DNA from: Gulosibacter macacae
GTDB lineage: Bacteria; Actinomycetota; Actinomycetes; Actinomycetales; Microbacteriaceae
Direction: 5' to 3'
DNA length: 64,000 nucleotides
Assembly (NCBI RefSeq): GCF_003865375.1
Contig: NZ_RQVS01000002.1
Coordinates: forward strand, 186,001-250,000
Shown here in pieces: positions 33,567-42,302 of this stretch. Within the stretch, counting starts at the first letter, position 1; each line of letters opens with the position of its first letter. The notes below the pieces were generated by a model. The model did no database searches. It saw nothing but the letters and a program-made list of their open reading frames with translations, and was not told where the DNA came from. The position numbers and the translations under genes were made by a program.

Positions 33567-34433
33567 ATGGCGACCAAAGACCGAGACCAGATCCGCAAGC
33601 TGCGGGAAGAAGCGAACGCACTGCGCAAGCAGGAAGAGGCGAAGAAGCGCCGCGCTCGCATGCTCACGCAGATCGGCGTGATCGCCGCAGCGGTTCTCGT
33701 GATCGCCGCTGTGGTCGTGGTGGCCGTCATGGCACCGACCTGGTTCGGTAACCGAAATGTCCCGGCCTCGCAGGGCACCGTCGCAGTCGCAACCTCGACC
33801 GGTGGCACCGCGGAGGTGCCGATCGCGGTGAGCGAAGAGGGCGTCCTCATTGGTGACCCGAATGCGGCCGTGAAGATTGACTACTACCTCGACTTCTCGT
33901 GCAGCTACTGCAAGGACTACCACGACGCCATGGGTCACGAGTACGAGACCCTTGTCGGCGACGGCGAAGCCGCCGTCAACTTCCACTTCATCCGCTACGT
34001 GAATGACTTCGGCACCCGCGCTGGCGCCTCGCTCATCGCAGCCATCCAGCACCAGCCCGAGCTCTTCTTCACGATCATGGATGGCATCTACGCCACCCCC
34101 GCTCAGGACCAGGTGAACTGGAACTTCAACAACTACACGACGCTCCTGTCGAGCCTTGGCGTGACCAACTCCGACGCGATCTCGTCGATCACCAACGGTG
34201 ACTACGCCTGGTACATCAGCGACTCGACGCAGAAGGCACGCTCGGCCGGCGTCCCCGGCACGCCCTCGCTCTACTTCAACGGTGAGCGCAACGACAGCCT
34301 GCCGACCGACGGTGCAAGCCTGCGCACGCTCGTCGCTGAACTCTCGGGCGCACCGGCCGAAACCCCCGCTGAGACCCCGGCCGCCGAAACCCCGGCCGCT
34401 GAGACTCCCGCCGAAACTCCGGCTGCGAACTAG
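33567..34433 (+). CDS. DsbA-family thioredoxin-fold protein, membrane-anchored
   Basis: A 288-residue protein. A charged N-terminus and one helix at about residues 33-57 anchor it with the catalytic domain outside. The thioredoxin-like domain has the CSYC active site (Cys112, Cys115) in DYYLDFSCSYCKDYHD and a cis-Pro region AGVPGTPSLYFNG. The last 30 residues are PAETPAE repeats. It probably introduces disulfide bonds into exported proteins, being reoxidised by the VKOR protein encoded next, whose start overlaps its stop by one base. Confidence 0.92.
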   Translation: MATKDRDQIRKLREEANALRKQEEAKKRRARMLTQIGVIAAAVLVIAAVVVVAVMAPTWFGNRNVPASQGTVAVATSTGGTAEVPIAVSEEGVLIGDPNAAVKIDYYLDFSCSYCKDYHDAMGHEYETLVGDGEAAVNFHFIRYVNDFGTRAGASLIAAIQHQPELFFTIMDGIYATPAQDQVNWNFNNYTTLLSSLGVTNSDAISSITNGDYAWYISDSTQKARSAGVPGTPSLYFNGERNDSLPTDGASLRTLVAELSGAPAETPAETPAAETPAAETPAETPAAN

Positions 34434-35131
34434 TGACGCGCGAGGATGCGCCCGCCGAGGCAGCGGAGCTGGATTACGACGAACTCGATGAGTTCGATGA
34501 TGCCGACGAGTTTGGCGAAGAAGTAGGCGAGCACACGCCGCTGTTGCTTCGCCACTCGCCGGTCGGCTGGATTCTCATCATCTGTGGTGCGATCGGCCTG
34601 CTCGCGAGCTTCATGCTCACGATCGAGTACCTGCACAAGCTGCAGTCACCGACCGAGCAACTCATCTGCGACATCAACCCGTTCATCACCTGTGGACCGG
34701 CGATGATGTCGGATGCCGGCAGCATCCTCGGCTTCCCGAACATCATTCTCGGCCTCGTGTGTTTCACGATCACCATCACCACCGGTGTCGTGATTCTCAC
34801 TGGCGTGAAGCTCCCGCGCTGGTACTGGATCTGCTTCCAACTGGGGCTCGTGGGCGCTGCGGCGCTCATCACCTACCTGCAGTGGTTCAGCGCCTTTGAA
34901 CTCGGCAAACTCTGCCTGTGGTGCATGATCATCTGGACCGCGACGATTCCGCTCGTTGCGCTCACCACGATCGCGAACCTCGGCCACGGCCGCCTCGGCG
35001 CGGGGGCTGTAGGTCTCGGCCGCAAGCTCGCCTCGTGGGGATGGGTTGTCGTCGTGCTTTGGTATCTCGCCGTCATTGGCTTGATCGCCATGGGCATGTG
35101 GGAAGCCTTCATGCTCGCGTTCGCGTACTAG
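34433..35131 (+). CDS. Vitamin K epoxide reductase (VKOR) family protein
   Basis: A 232-residue membrane protein starting at GTG 34433. It has an acidic N-terminus, about five helices, a loop pair Cys79/Cys87 (LICDINPFITC) and an active-site CLWC (Cys161, Cys164) in the quinone-facing helix. In actinobacteria VKOR replaces DsbB and reoxidises DsbA-type proteins, passing electrons to menaquinone. The pairing with the DsbA-like gene supports this. Confidence 0.93.
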   Translation: MTREDAPAEAAELDYDELDEFDDADEFGEEVGEHTPLLLRHSPVGWILIICGAIGLLASFMLTIEYLHKLQSPTEQLICDINPFITCGPAMMSDAGSILGFPNIILGLVCFTITITTGVVILTGVKLPRWYWICFQLGLVGAAALITYLQWFSAFELGKLCLWCMIIWTATIPLVALTTIANLGHGRLGAGAVGLGRKLASWGWVVVVLWYLAVIGLIAMGMWEAFMLAFAY

Positions 35132-36378: not shown

Positions 36379-36394
36379 CTGACCACTCGGTCAG
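36379..36394. promoter_or_regulatory. TetR-type operator, copy 1
   Basis: ctgaccactcggtcag, perfect 6-base arms around actc, upstream of the TetR gene at 36493. A second, related palindrome lies 33 bases on. Confidence 0.78.
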
Positions 36395-36411
36395 TGTACG
36401 CTTGAGGTGTC

Positions 36412-36427
36412 CTGACCGAACGGTCAG
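36412..36427. promoter_or_regulatory. TetR-type operator, copy 2
   Basis: ctgaccgaacggtcag, the same arms with a different centre. Together with copy 1 it is the likely binding site for the regulator encoded downstream, controlling the TetR-MMPL-YhgE operon. Confidence 0.78.
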
Positions 36428-36492
36428 AGTTGTCGAGATTGCGGCGCAGGCCGCGACACCGTGCGGTTACCCCGCACTGAGGAGCCTCTGGA

Positions 36493-37125
36493 ATGACCAC
36501 GACGACGCCGCCCGCAGAACCCCGCGAGCGCATCCTGAAATACGCCCTGACTGAGTTCGCGAGCCGCGGCTACGAAGCCGCATCTCTCGCTCGCATCGCC
36601 GAACTGGCCGATGCGACGAAGCAAAACCTGCTCTATCACTTCGGGACGAAGGGGGCCCTGCTCCACGCCGTGCTCGAACCCGTGCTTGCGCAGGTTGCTG
36701 AAGTGTCCGAAGAATTGCGCGATCCCAACAGCACGATCGACCCGGCGCTCGCCGTGATCGACGTGCTCCTCGAGAACCGCACCGCCGCCGAACTCGTGCT
36801 GTTTCACCTCTCGACGCTGCCCGACAAGACGATCACCGCGTCGGTACTCGACCTTTTCGAACTCGTTGCCGCGCGACTCGCGCCCGGCGACCCGACCGCA
36901 CCGCTGCGCACGATCATCGCCCTGACCGGTATGGCCTACGCGATCGCCGCCCACGAGCGTCCCGAACTCGACCGCATCGTGCCCCGATACCGGCCCGAGA
37001 TGGAGTTTGCCGACAGGGAGCAACTCGCTGCCCTCCTGCGACAAATGACCGGCACCGAAATGACCGGCACCGAACTCAGCCGCATCACCCTCTCAAGCAT
37101 CTGCTCGAACGACGACGAGAACTAG
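36493..37125 (+). CDS. TetR/AcrR family regulator
   Basis: A 210-residue regulator with gaggag before ATG 36493. The helix-turn-helix region is EPRERILKYALTEFASRGYEAASLARIAELADATKQNLLYHFGTKGALLHAV. The C-terminal domain is helical, ending in two ACC-rich repeats coding MTGTEMTGTEL. The MMPL transporter follows nine bases after its stop, so it is probably an autoregulated repressor of this operon, responding to a transported compound. Confidence 0.92.
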   Translation: MTTTTPPAEPRERILKYALTEFASRGYEAASLARIAELADATKQNLLYHFGTKGALLHAVLEPVLAQVAEVSEELRDPNSTIDPALAVIDVLLENRTAAELVLFHLSTLPDKTITASVLDLFELVAARLAPGDPTAPLRTIIALTGMAYAIAAHERPELDRIVPRYRPEMEFADREQLAALLRQMTGTEMTGTELSRITLSSICSNDDEN

Positions 37126-37134
37126 GAGGCAACC

Positions 37135-40032
37135 ATGGCGCTATTGCTCTATCGCATCGGACTGTTCTCGTACCGCCACCGCTGGCAGGTGCTCGTCGCC
37201 TGGATCGTCGTGTTTGCAGGTCTTCTCGCCGCGGGCCTCGGGCTCGGCGGCACCATGAAGGAATCGTTTGCGATCCCGGGCACCGAGTCGCAGCGGGCAC
37301 TCGACCGTCTCGAGCAGGTGTTCCCCGAGGTCGCTGGTGCGAGCGCGCAGGTCGTGATCGAAACCACCGACGGCAAGATCGAACCGCACAAAGAACGCAT
37401 CCAGACCGCCGTCAAAGAAATCGCCGGCCAACCGCACGTCATCCAGGCCCTTGACCCGTGGAGCGAATACGCCACGAACACCCTCGCCGACGACGGCGAA
37501 GCGGTCATCGTGCAGGTGCAGTTCACCACAAATGTGACCTCAGAACTCACGGCCGATGTCGAAGCAATCCGCGAGATTGGCACGAACCTCGGCACCGACG
37601 GCCTGCGCGTCGCGTTTGGTGGCCAGCTCTATCAGAACCTCGAATACGGCCTCACCGTCACCGAACTCATCGGTGTCGCGTTCGCGGCGATCGTGCTCAT
37701 CGTCGCGTTCGGCTCGGTGCTCGCGGCCGGGATGCCGCTCATCTCTGCCATCGTCGCCGTCGGCACCACTATGGGGGCAATTCTCGTCGTCGCGAAGTTC
37801 GTGACGGTGTCGAGCGCGACGCCGCTCCTCGCGGTCATGATCGGCTTGGCGGTCGGTATCGACTACGCCCTGTTCATCTTGTCTCGACATCGGCAACAAC
37901 TGGCTCGCGGCGCAGAACCCGCAGAGTCGACGGCGACCGCGGTCGGCACTTCGGGCTCGGCGGTCGTGTTTGCCGGGGCGACCGTGATGGTGGCGCTCCT
38001 CGGCCTTGTCATTGTCGGCATCCCCTTCCTCTCGGTCATGGGTATCGCTGCGGCCGCCGGTGTCTTCGCCGCGCTCGCCGCATCGATCACGCTGCTCCCG
38101 GCCCTCCTCGGCTTCGCGGGCGAACGAATGCGACCAAAGGAAGGTTCGCGAGCCTGGCGCCGTGACACCGGCGCCAACGCGAAGCCGTCAATGGGTCGCC
38201 GCTGGGTGCGACTGGTGCTCAAGGCACCGATTGTGTTCATCCTGCTCGTCATCGCCGGACTCGGCGCGCTCGCGATCCCCGCCCTGCACATGCAAACTTC
38301 GCTGCCGAGCGGCAAGGGCGAGGCCGTCGGCTACACCGCCCGCGACGCCTACGACATTGTCACGAACCACTTCGGCGAGGGCGCGAACGGCCCGATGCTC
38401 GTGATGCTTGACATCACTCAGATGAGTAACGACACCCTCATGGATGACCTCGCCGCGATCCGCGACCGCGTGGCCGCCGTGCCCGGGGTCGCGCACACCG
38501 GCCAGGCGCTGCCGAACCCGACGGTCGACTCGGCGATCATCCAGGTGATTCCTACCACCGGGCCCGATGACCCAGCCACCTTCAACACTGTCGTCGGCCT
38601 TCGCGACCTCGCCGCGGGCATCCAAGACGACTACCACGCCGTGAGCTCGGTGACCGGCGCGACTGCCGTACAAATCGACATCACGAACCGACTCAACGGT
38701 GCACTCCTGCCCTTCGCGGCAGTCGTCGTCGGGTTGAGCTTCGTGCTGCTCACGATGGTGTTCCGCTCGTTGCTCGTGCCGCTCAAGGCCGCGCTCAGCT
38801 TCTTGCTCTCAGCGTTCGCCGCGTTCGGCGTCGTCGTACTCGTCTTCCAAGACGGCATCTTCGGCGAGATCTTCGGCATCGTGCCGGGGCCAATCATCGC
38901 GTTCCTGCCCGTGCTACTGCTCGCAATTGTCTTCGGCCTCGCCATGGACTACGAGGTGTTCCTCGTTTCGGGCATGCGTGAGGCGCATGTGCACGGCCAC
39001 CGCGCGCGGGAGGCCATCGAAGAGGGATTCACGAATGCTGCCCGCGTCGTTACCGCGGCCGCGCTCATCATGTTCTTCGTCTTCATCGCCTTCGTGCCCG
39101 AGGGCGCCGGCGTCATCAAGGTGATCGCCTTCGGCCTCGCCGCCGGCATCTTCTTCGACGCCTTCCTCGTGCGCATGACCCTCGTGCCGGCACTCATGGC
39201 GCTCTTCGGTGAAAAGGCCTGGGCGCTGCCACGCTGGCTCGACCGGATGCTGCCCGACCTCGACATCGAGGGGGAAGGTCTGCGCGAATATCAGGCGCAG
39301 GCTGCCTGGGCGCGCGAGCATCCGGCCGCCATCGCGTTCGAGTCGCTGCGCATCGGCGATGAAGCGCATCCGATCACCGCCGCCGACGTCGACGTGCCCG
39401 CGGGCGGCGTGCTCGTGGCGCGCGGCACGGCACCGACGCGGCGCCTGCTCAGTGCGACGCTCGCGGGTCGGCTCGATCCTGTTGGCGGGCGCGCGCAGGT
39501 GCTCGGGCGCTCATTGCCCGGGGATGCGCCGGGGCTCGTCACCCGCGTCGCAAGCGTCGATCTCGGCAACCTTGACGACCGTTCGCGCGAACTCACCCTC
39601 GGGCAATTGCTTGGTCGGCACGCCGCCTATGGTGGGCTGACGATGCGCACCGAGGTGCCGGCGAGCGCAACGGCCGAGGCCATCGAGCTCCTCAACGAGG
39701 CACTCACGGAGGCTGGGCATCCCTCCCCGAACCTGCGCGCCGACACCTACCTCGACGCCCTCGACCCGGTCTCGCGAGCGGTGGCCCTGATCGGCATCAC
39801 CGTCGCTGAACGACCGGAACTGCTCATCCTCGACCTCGGCGTGCTCGCGCATTCGGCCGAAGCCCCCCGACTCGGTAGCGCCGTCGTCCGCGCCGCCGAA
39901 CGACTTGCCGACCCGGGCACGACGGTCGTGCTCGGCGCATCCTCACAATTCGACCTCGACGCATTCGCGCGCGGGGTCGGCGACCGCAACGTCGCCAGCC
40001 TCACTCTCACAGGAAAGGAGTCGCGCGCATGA
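37135..40032 (+). CDS. MMPL-family transporter fused to a degenerate ABC-ATPase-like domain
   Basis: A 965-residue protein with aggaggcaacc before ATG 37135. Residues about 1-705 form an RND/MMPL exporter: a first helix, an extracytoplasmic loop (PGTESQRALDRLEQVFPEV), helix clusters such as VMIGLAVGIDYALFILSRHR and AIVFGLAMDYEVFLVSGMREA, twelve helices in all. The last 230 residues look like an ABC ATPase that has lost its motifs: ARGTAPTRRLL replaces Walker A near residue 760, LDPVSRAVAL replaces LSGGQ, and RPELLILDLG near 893 lacks the catalytic Glu. MMPL proteins export lipids, drugs or siderophores; the extra domain may be a docking or regulatory part. YhgE/Pip follows with a four-base overlap. 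Confidence 0.88.
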   Translation: MALLLYRIGLFSYRHRWQVLVAWIVVFAGLLAAGLGLGGTMKESFAIPGTESQRALDRLEQVFPEVAGASAQVVIETTDGKIEPHKERIQTAVKEIAGQPHVIQALDPWSEYATNTLADDGEAVIVQVQFTTNVTSELTADVEAIREIGTNLGTDGLRVAFGGQLYQNLEYGLTVTELIGVAFAAIVLIVAFGSVLAAGMPLISAIVAVGTTMGAILVVAKFVTVSSATPLLAVMIGLAVGIDYALFILSRHRQQLARGAEPAESTATAVGTSGSAVVFAGATVMVALLGLVIVGIPFLSVMGIAAAAGVFAALAASITLLPALLGFAGERMRPKEGSRAWRRDTGANAKPSMGRRWVRLVLKAPIVFILLVIAGLGALAIPALHMQTSLPSGKGEAVGYTARDAYDIVTNHFGEGANGPMLVMLDITQMSNDTLMDDLAAIRDRVAAVPGVAHTGQALPNPTVDSAIIQVIPTTGPDDPATFNTVVGLRDLAAGIQDDYHAVSSVTGATAVQIDITNRLNGALLPFAAVVVGLSFVLLTMVFRSLLVPLKAALSFLLSAFAAFGVVVLVFQDGIFGEIFGIVPGPIIAFLPVLLLAIVFGLAMDYEVFLVSGMREAHVHGHRAREAIEEGFTNAARVVTAAALIMFFVFIAFVPEGAGVIKVIAFGLAAGIFFDAFLVRMTLVPALMALFGEKAWALPRWLDRMLPDLDIEGEGLREYQAQAAWAREHPAAIAFESLRIGDEAHPITAADVDVPAGGVLVARGTAPTRRLLSATLAGRLDPVGGRAQVLGRSLPGDAPGLVTRVASVDLGNLDDRSRELTLGQLLGRHAAYGGLTMRTEVPASATAEAIELLNEALTEAGHPSPNLRADTYLDALDPVSRAVALIGITVAERPELLILDLGVLAHSAEAPRLGSAVVRAAERLADPGTTVVLGASSQFDLDAFARGVGDRNVASLTLTGKESRA

Positions 40033-42302
40033 GCACCGCAACCAGCTTCGCCGCGGCCCGCACTCGAAACCTGCTCATCGCGATTCTCTTGCCGCTGTTG
40101 CTCGTCGGCGTCTACCTCGCCTCGCTCGGTGGCGCCGCCCAGGCGTCGGCCAAGTTGCCGGCGGTGATCGTGAATAACGACCAAATGGTCGAGCAGGCCA
40201 ATAATGACGGCACGACGACCCCCGTGGTCGCCGGACGCCTGCTCGTCAGTTGGCTCACGAACCCCGAGAACGCGGGCGAGTTCAACTGGACCCTCGCAAA
40301 GCCCGAACACGCCCAGCAACTGCTCGATAGCGGTGAGGCCTATGTCGCCGTGACGATTCCGAGCGACTTCTCGGCCTCGATCGTGTCGGCAGGCGGCGGG
40401 TCTCCCCGCGCCGCGAAGATCGAAGTGACCACGAGCCAATCGCGCGACTACCTCACCGGCGCCGTCTCACAGCAATTGTTTGACGGACTCGTCGCCGAAT
40501 TTGGGCAGACGATCACGAACCAGATTGCTGTGGGGCTCGCTGACGGCGTGAATCAATCGGCCGAGGGTCTGCAGGCGGCCGCCGACGGGGCCTCGCAACT
40601 CGCCGATGGCGCCTCGCAACTCGGCGACGGCTTCGGTCAGTATCGCGATGGCCAGGCGCAACTCGCCGAAGGCACCTCGCAGGCCGCCGACGGTGCCTCG
40701 CAGCTTGCCGACGGTGCCTCACTCTTTGGCAATGGCGTGTCGAGTTACGTCGACGGCGTCGATCAATATCTCGATGGTGCCGGCACGCTCGCCGGTGGGG
40801 TGCGCGACTATGTCGATGGTGTGAACACGTACTCGCTCGGCGTCGATCAATTCGCCGGCGGCGTGCGCGATCTCAATGATGGGATGCAGCAGCTCGCCGA
40901 TGGCGCGGGCCCCCTCGGCGACGCGGCCACGCAATTGGGTGACATGGCTGGCCAGCTTGAGGGCGCATCCGGTCAGATCAATGACGCGATTGACGCGGCC
41001 GAACAATTGCGCCCGCTGCTGGAAGGACTCGCGAGCGTTGACCCGGCCTCGCTCTACGAAATCTGCACGGCACTCGAGGCGGTCGACCCGGCGCAGGCTG
41101 AGTCGTGCCGTGGCGAGATCGACACCCTGATCGACGCAATTGACACCTCCGGCCTTGACCTCGGCACGATTACCACCGGCTTCGATAACGCGATCGAAGG
41201 ATTGCGTCAGCTCTCGGGCGCGGGTGGCCAGCTCTCGCAGCTCGCCGATGGACTCGGCCAGTTCACCGATGGTGTGAAGCAGGCTGCCGATGGCAGTTCG
41301 CAATTGGCGGATGGTGCGGGTGCGCTGATCGACGGCGGCGTTGCGATCCGAGACGGTGGTTCGAAGCTCGCCGATGGCGCCAACCAACTCACCGGCGCGA
41401 ACTCGCAGCTGCGTGACGGTGGATCGCAATTGGCTGATGGTGCCGCTGGAATCTCGGGTGGTGCCTATGATCTCGCCCACGGTCTCGATGCGCTCGCGGA
41501 TGGGCAGCAGCAGATCGTTGATGGCGGCGCGCCGCTTGCCGACGGCATCACCCAGCTCGGTGACGGTGCGACGACAATGGCGAAGTCGCTACAGGAAGGT
41601 GCCGATCAGGCCAAGGTCGCGATTCAAGACCCGGATGCATTCGCTGCCGTGGTTTCGCAACCGGTCACCGTATCGACAGTGCCAACGCAAGACCCGGGCT
41701 TTGGAGGAGTGCTCGCCTCGATTGCGATGCCGCTTGGCGTGTGGCTGGCGGCGCTTATCACCGCGTTGCGACGACGCCTCGTGACGGCTGACCTGCTCAA
41801 TTCGAGCGCGTCGAACGCGATGATTCTGCTCACTGCCGCGCGGCGTCTGCTTGCCCCGGTCGGCATCGTCGCGGTGGTGCTCGCAATCGTGCCGCACGTG
41901 TTCGTGGGCGCCCCGTGGATTGGGCTCGGGGGTTCGCTGCTCTTCGCAGCGCTGGTCACGCTCGTTGTGGTCGCGGCACATTTGCTCTTCGCGATCCTGT
42001 GGGATCGGCGGAACGCCGCCATCGCCTCGGTCACGGCGCTCGCGATTCAGCTGGTGCTCGAGCGCGGCTTTATTCCGCTCGAGATCAAGGCCCCGTGGGC
42101 AGAGTCGTTGGCAGGGTTGCTCCCGCTTTCACAGGCGGCGGCGGGGATGCAATCCCTCTACGCGGGCGGCACGATCGGCTCGATCTTCGGTCCGGGCGCG
42201 CTGCTCGCGCTGGGGGCGATCGCCCTGTTCGCCATCGCCGCGGTCGCGCTCATGCGCAAGCGGCGGGCCTCTGTGGCGAAGCTGCTCGCCGCAGCGGGGT
42301 GA
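40029..42302 (+). CDS. YhgE/Pip family membrane protein
   Basis: A 757-residue protein starting at ATG 40029 (overlap with the previous stop). One helix near residues 13-31 precedes an extracytoplasmic domain (KLPAVIVNNDQMVEQ, the YhgE N-terminal type). A long coiled-coil-like region, about residues 170-540, is built from seven-residue repeats of the form QLADGAS. About six C-terminal helices from residue 558 on resemble ABC-2-type permeases. YhgE/Pip proteins include phage-receptor and type VII secretion (EsaA) relatives. It probably works with the MMPL protein. Confidence 0.88.
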   Translation: MSTATSFAAARTRNLLIAILLPLLLVGVYLASLGGAAQASAKLPAVIVNNDQMVEQANNDGTTTPVVAGRLLVSWLTNPENAGEFNWTLAKPEHAQQLLDSGEAYVAVTIPSDFSASIVSAGGGSPRAAKIEVTTSQSRDYLTGAVSQQLFDGLVAEFGQTITNQIAVGLADGVNQSAEGLQAAADGASQLADGASQLGDGFGQYRDGQAQLAEGTSQAADGASQLADGASLFGNGVSSYVDGVDQYLDGAGTLAGGVRDYVDGVNTYSLGVDQFAGGVRDLNDGMQQLADGAGPLGDAATQLGDMAGQLEGASGQINDAIDAAEQLRPLLEGLASVDPASLYEICTALEAVDPAQAESCRGEIDTLIDAIDTSGLDLGTITTGFDNAIEGLRQLSGAGGQLSQLADGLGQFTDGVKQAADGSSQLADGAGALIDGGVAIRDGGSKLADGANQLTGANSQLRDGGSQLADGAAGISGGAYDLAHGLDALADGQQQIVDGGAPLADGITQLGDGATTMAKSLQEGADQAKVAIQDPDAFAAVVSQPVTVSTVPTQDPGFGGVLASIAMPLGVWLAALITALRRRLVTADLLNSSASNAMILLTAARRLLAPVGIVAVVLAIVPHVFVGAPWIGLGGSLLFAALVTLVVVAAHLLFAILWDRRNAAIASVTALAIQLVLERGFIPLEIKAPWAESLAGLLPLSQAAAGMQSLYAGGTIGSIFGPGALLALGAIALFAIAAVALMRKRRASVAKLLAAAG

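Follow-up and report, generated by a model that had tools for sequence, protein, structure and literature searches.

The stretch of DNA analysed here, referred to as the window, comprises 64,000 nucleotides of the genome of Gulosibacter macacae. A cassette of three genes was identified in it, coding for a TetR-family regulator, a transporter of the MMPL family and a membrane protein of the YhgE/Pip type. The C-terminal part of the MMPL protein is a fused pseudo-ABC nucleotide-binding domain (NBD). The cassette and its features are the following, with the positions in the window and the supporting evidence in parentheses:

36379..36394, no strand assigned: predicted TetR-type operator 1, CTGACCACTCGGTCAG (inverted repeat, upstream of tetR)
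36412..36427, no strand assigned: predicted TetR-type operator 2, CTGACCGAACGGTCAG (inverted repeat, upstream of tetR)
36493-42302, plus strand: cassette of three genes, TetR, then MMPL, then YhgE/Pip (open reading frames)
36493..37125, plus strand: TetR-family regulator, first gene of the cassette, 210 aa (PF00440, 41 bits, cut-off 24)
37135..40032, plus strand: MMPL transporter with fused pseudo-ABC NBD, 965 aa (PF03176, 304.6 bits)
37135..39270, plus strand: MMPL core, residues 1-712 (alignment to PDB 7nvh)
39271..40029, plus strand: C-terminal pseudo-NBD, residues 713-965, about 250 residues (AlphaFold AF2 model, Foldseek, profile, hhalign)
39418..39450, plus strand: degenerate P-loop ARGTAPTRRLL (Walker A Lys absent in 52/52 close orthologues)
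39760..39774, plus strand: ABC signature position, with LDPVS in place of LSGGQ (motif alignment)
39811..39840, plus strand: Walker B segment RPELLILDLG (Asp kept in 47/52, catalytic Glu in 0/52)
40029..42302, plus strand: YhgE/Pip-type membrane protein, 757 aa (ABC2_membrane_3, TIGR03057 repeats, AF2 model)
40455..41618, plus strand: coiled-coil (LxxG heptad) region of YhgE, residues 143-530 (TIGR03057, AF2 model)
41646..42299, plus strand: C-terminal membrane domain of YhgE, ABC-2-permease-like (Pfam, NCBIfam, AF2, Foldseek)

The genes for MMPL and YhgE overlap by 4 bp, with ATGA common to both. For the regulator, both a TetR_N domain and a conserved promoter palindrome, the predicted operator, were found, and a TetR gene likewise lies upstream of the MMPL gene in the closer relatives. 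The sequence CTGACCNNNCGGTCAG has exact matches in the 2.82-Mb genome only at operators 1 and 2, and a similar palindrome, in most cases TGACCGATCGGTCA, precedes the cassette in 46 out of 55 related loci. The operators noted in the initial annotation are therefore real and conserved. At 33567-35131 of the window, a DsbA-like protein with a thioredoxin fold adjoins a VKOR-like membrane protein, as judged by eye from the translations.

The MMPL protein matched Pfam PF03176 above the cut-off in two stretches, which correspond to the two halves of the transporter. Its closest named relatives, from a Microbacteriaceae MAG, Gulosibacter chungangensis, [Zimmermannella] faecalis and Gulosibacter hominis, share 67-76% identity in the best segment. 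In the alignment with MmpL3 (PDB 7nvh), D243/Y244 and D605/Y606 of the window protein correspond to D251/Y252 and D640/Y641, so that an Asp-Tyr pair is present in both transmembrane bundles. In MmpL3, these pairs are the residues of the proton relay. Since both pairs are kept, proton-driven export is the default reading for the window protein.

Both ancestry and fold identify the C-terminal domain as an ABC NBD. When residues 725-965 were used as a single sequence, no match was obtained in the Pfam, NCBIfam or PDB/phmmer searches. A family profile was built from the window domain and 51 orthologous tails (52 sequences in total), and this profile matched ABC NBDs in the PDB, with EcfA as the best (1.4e-9) and CbiO at 3e-8. 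In hhalign, the domain was aligned to stand-alone NBDs linked to YhgE over 193 columns with a probability of 99.4% (E 2.6e-21); it is thus of one family with the NBDs that are encoded separately next to YhgE in other actinobacteria. Two orthologous tails richer in motifs (L106 and L101) scored above the Pfam ABC_tran gathering threshold. The initial annotation had read the tail as a degenerate ABC ATPase and had named a different fold as an outcome that would speak against this. An NBD fold was predicted instead: the AF2 model of the domain has a pLDDT of 94.0 and a pTM of 0.91, and its leading PDB matches in Foldseek were all ABC NBDs (CbiO, OppD/F and FtsE; E from 8.5e-12, probability 1.00), with a TM-score of about 0.6. 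The sequence of the domain evolves fast, with 19-57% identity between the orthologous domains and that of the window. The window domain is not picked up by any model of Pfam or NCBIfam, so that it is probably overlooked in most annotations.

The three motif segments of the domain read as first described, and they depart from a canonical NBD throughout. The Walker A motif GxxGxGK[ST] is absent from the window domain; at the position of the Lys, none of the 52 window-type domains has Lys and 49 have Arg, and at their columns neither the preceding Gly nor the His of the H-switch is a common residue. In Walker B of the window, the Asp is retained and the catalytic Glu is replaced by Leu. None of P-loop, signature, catalytic Glu and H-switch is thus left, and, judged by its sequence, the window domain no longer has the residues needed to bind and hydrolyse ATP. 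A canonical SGG signature was not found among the aligned relatives, whether fused or stand-alone. The stand-alone NBDs linked to YhgE have kept the glycines of the P-loop in 20/20 cases, with Lys in 9 and Arg in 11; all 20 are devoid of catalytic Glu and H-switch His, and 15 have Asp at the position of the Glu. Much of the motif decay therefore predates the fusion or is independent of it, and as far as the aligned motifs tell, this class of NBDs is unusual already before, or without, fusion to an MMPL. In two loci of one distant family outside the order (L187 and L188), the fused domain has an intact P-loop, GPSGSGKT, and the proteins pass the Pfam models both for MMPL (284-295 bits) and for ABC_tran (51-57 bits, cut-off 25). 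Nucleotide binding thus did not have to be lost for the fusion to arise.

Three further observations concern the shape and motifs of these domains. In the tails of group B (L096-L126), which are shorter, the helical or signature subdomain between the Q-loop region and Walker B appears to be missing. Two members of this group, L101 and L106, have an intact P-loop. Stand-alone NBD-like proteins without any P-loop were also identified directly before YhgE (L132-L137), so that decay in the NBD class occurs without MMPL fusion, too.

The YhgE protein consists of a first transmembrane helix, an extracytoplasmic domain of the ABC-2 type, long coils and C-terminal transmembrane helices. It passed the Pfam ABC2_membrane_3 model (53.4 bits, cut-off 31.6), and LxxG heptad repeats were identified between the membrane segments in nine stretches (TIGR03057, 85.6 bits compared to 18.6). 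It stays below the curated cut-offs for the N- and C-terminal YhgE regions, with 87.6/96.15 bits for TIGR03061 and 40.9/102.2 bits for TIGR03062. In the AF2 model, which is weak overall (pLDDT 77, pTM 0.53), a single helix at the N-terminus is followed by an alpha/beta domain, by long helices spanning about 390 residues and, at the C-terminus, by a membrane domain made of helices. In Foldseek, the list for the whole model consisted mostly of unrelated coiled coils, which were set aside; the meaningful, lower-ranked matches were 3cni, an ABC type-2 transporter domain, and ABCH and ABCA entries, with probabilities of 0.82-1.00 and weak E-values. The ABC-2-like character that had been assigned to the C-terminus at the outset is thus upheld by ABC2_membrane_3 above its cut-off and by these weak structural matches. 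For the YhgE homologues next to stand-alone NBDs, two (L129 and L153) score above the cut-offs of TIGR03061 and TIGR03062, the C-termini weakly match DrrB and other ABC-2 permeases, and the adjacent stand-alone NBD of L153 gave its best scores with models of the NodI and DrrA type.

YhgE/Pip proteins are known as phage receptors and are related to EsaA of type VIIb secretion; we know of no function that has been assigned to them. The occurrence of YhgE next to the fused domain is regular. YhgE follows the MMPL gene in the window and in five named records, and it lies immediately next to 79/79 further domain-bearing MMPLs sampled from the Microbacteriaceae (L048-L126), where the 4-bp overlap is frequent. 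For domain-bearing MMPLs from seven other families, YhgE is next in 8/8 cases, six of them from other Micrococcales-level families (L167-L172) and two from outside the order (L187, L188). Among MMPLs without the domain, YhgE was found nearby in 0/15 of the same family, including the two paralogues in the genome of the window, and in 0/16 elsewhere in the order and class. The linkage is without exception in the sample and gives a log10 p of -28.6 in a one-sided Fisher test, a figure that ignores shared ancestry and is weakened by the relatedness of the loci. The association of the fusion with a YhgE neighbour, pointed out initially for this one locus, accordingly recurs, and MMPLs without the domain do not adjoin YhgE (0/31 in total).

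The same association was identified for the domain in its stand-alone form. From a search of 297 genomes of the order with the window profile, 14 stand-alone NBD hits were chosen (L153-L166). All 14 lie directly before YhgE and all have a P-loop, among them GPASSGKT, GRSGAGKT and GPQGSGRS. More pairs of this kind (L128-L131, L143, L144) were reached from the side of YhgE; the loci L128-L146, picked by their YhgE hits, were left out of the unbiased evidence for linkage. When the distances of the C-terminal domains were compared with those of YhgE for 54 loci after removal of the MMPL distance, a partial r of 0.44 was obtained (permutation p 0.0005); a shared relaxation of constraint could be an alternative cause of this correlated divergence.

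Some domain-free proteins showed features of their own. The first extracytoplasmic domain of the MMPLs L176 and L178 contains an insertion that was weakly matched by the YhgE profile; heptad repeats considered for the two proteins were not confirmed by TIGR03057 (E 0.001). L200 and L201 have a tail of about 150 residues which, by eye, is like a carboxypeptidase-regulatory or Ig-like repeat.

The loci form a graded series, from a stand-alone NBD with YhgE, through a fused NBD with P-loop and YhgE, to a fused pseudo-NBD with YhgE. In the MMPL tree, the domain-bearing proteins make up one side of a branch that separates them from 29 domain-free MMPLs (SH-aLRT 99), a topology that fits a single gain of the domain on the MMPL side. 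In the YhgE tree, MMPL-linked and NBD-linked proteins are set apart, with a support of 98 for the NBD-linked side. L138, L139 and L142, in which a TetR-like gene lies directly before YhgE and neither an NBD nor an MMPL is present, form a YhgE clade of their own with good support. In the NBD tree, which has three outgroup sequences, too few for it to be relied on, the fused groups B and F were placed below the stand-alone NBDs (95/80); the stand-alone NBDs are nested among the fused ones, so the stand-alone pairs might be products of fission.

In the initial annotation, it was suggested that an ancestral pair of ABC ATPase and ABC-2 permease may have been captured by a proton-driven exporter and that the ATPase was reduced to a scaffold. 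NBD/YhgE pairs with P-loops do exist, as the first part would have it, but the NBD tree does not settle capture versus fission. The second part agrees with the motifs lost in the window; however, stand-alone NBDs are already devoid of LSGGQ and the catalytic Glu. A tentative reading, less likely than not, is that of a true RND-ABC hybrid, with an ancestor that had MMPL and a nucleotide-binding NBD in one chain acting on a shared YhgE partner, in the form seen in L187 and L188. The window lineage would later have given up the use of ATP and retained the NBD for mechanical coupling, and YhgE/Pip proteins would generally be the ABC-2-type partners of an unrecognised class of NBDs.

For the locus as a whole, we favour a TetR-repressed envelope exporter in which the MMPL pump and YhgE/Pip are made one unit by the pseudo-ABC domain, with a probability of about 0.6. 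The pseudo-NBD would most likely serve as a cytosolic docking adaptor for the ABC-2-like membrane domain of YhgE, binding at the place that corresponds to the NBD-permease contact of an ABC transporter and holding YhgE against the MMPL protein from the cytosolic side, in one physical export complex. The energy for transport would be provided by the proton relay of the MMPL protein, and the extracytoplasmic coils of YhgE may act as a conduit or wall-spanning extension, by analogy to the role that MmpL5 fills with its own coils. Group B domains are linked to YhgE although the helical subdomain seems to be missing from them, and docking may therefore involve another surface there. Going by what is generally known of the MMPL family, the substrate would most likely be a lipid, a glycolipid or an amphiphilic compound.

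The domain could instead regulate or oligomerise the MMPL protein, sensing nucleotide, lipid or a partner, rather than dock the co-regulated YhgE. It is covalently attached to the MMPL protein and diverges in step with it (r 0.72), and cytosolic partners are known for MMPL pumps, as AcpM binds MmpL5 (PMC12501195). This explanation is nevertheless unlikely, for the stand-alone relatives of the domain are linked to YhgE and not to MMPL, MMPLs without the domain never adjoin YhgE, and the domain tracks YhgE beyond the MMPL distance. Less probable still is that MMPL and YhgE work independently and are cotranscribed for a common stress response, with the domain as a non-functional remnant of an NBD; its fast-evolving sequence would be in line with this, but dozens of genera have kept the domain in frame and its predicted fold is intact, and its linkage to YhgE has no exception in the sample. 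An atypical mode of nucleotide binding by the domain, or its pairing with a second, intact NBD encoded elsewhere, either of which would make the complex partly ATP-driven, is very improbable, since the window domain and its 51 orthologues are without Walker A Lys, the Gly before it, signature, catalytic Glu and H-switch His and no separate intact NBD came up in the operons of domain-bearing MMPLs, even if the Walker B Asp is largely retained (47/52) and P-loops are intact in fused relatives and present in some members of group B.

RND-type and ABC-type transporters are usually seen as separate classes that are powered differently. The window protein unites both types in one polypeptide, with intermediates from an intact to a dead P-loop among its relatives. 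These findings further suggest that YhgE/Pip proteins descend from, or act as, membrane partners of the ABC-2 type, which makes their role directly testable. In the open-licence literature, no paper was found on an MMPL with YhgE, on an MMPL-NBD fusion or on YhgE with ABC-2.

Among known systems, MmpL3 and MmpL4-MmpL5 (MMPL family of the RND superfamily) share the MMPL core of 12 transmembrane helices with the window protein, and MmpL3 also has both Asp-Tyr pairs of the proton relay. To our knowledge, no known MmpL has an ABC-type NBD or a YhgE partner. The 712-residue core of the window protein leaves no obvious room for a coiled-coil insertion like that of MmpL5. For MmpS5L5, the coiled coil inserted in MmpL5 was found to be necessary for efflux and was modelled as a periplasmic tube (PMC12501195); whereas MmpL5 carries this long extracytoplasmic coil in its own chain, the coils in the window would come from a separate protein, YhgE. 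Pip and PIPEF, which are phage receptors, YueB, and EsaA of type VIIb secretion have an N-terminal YhgE domain, LxxG heptads and a C-terminal membrane part, as is the case here, but the window protein stays below the TIGR03061 and TIGR03062 cut-offs. For an enterococcal member of the YhgE/Pip group, no NBD partner was reported, and the function of its YhgE domain is not known (PMC4999554). With transporters of the ABC-2 class, of the NodI/NodJ and DrrA/DrrB type, the window domain has the NBD fold in common; in contrast to these, it is the fused tail of a proton-driven pump and, of the catalytic motifs, has kept the Walker B Asp alone.
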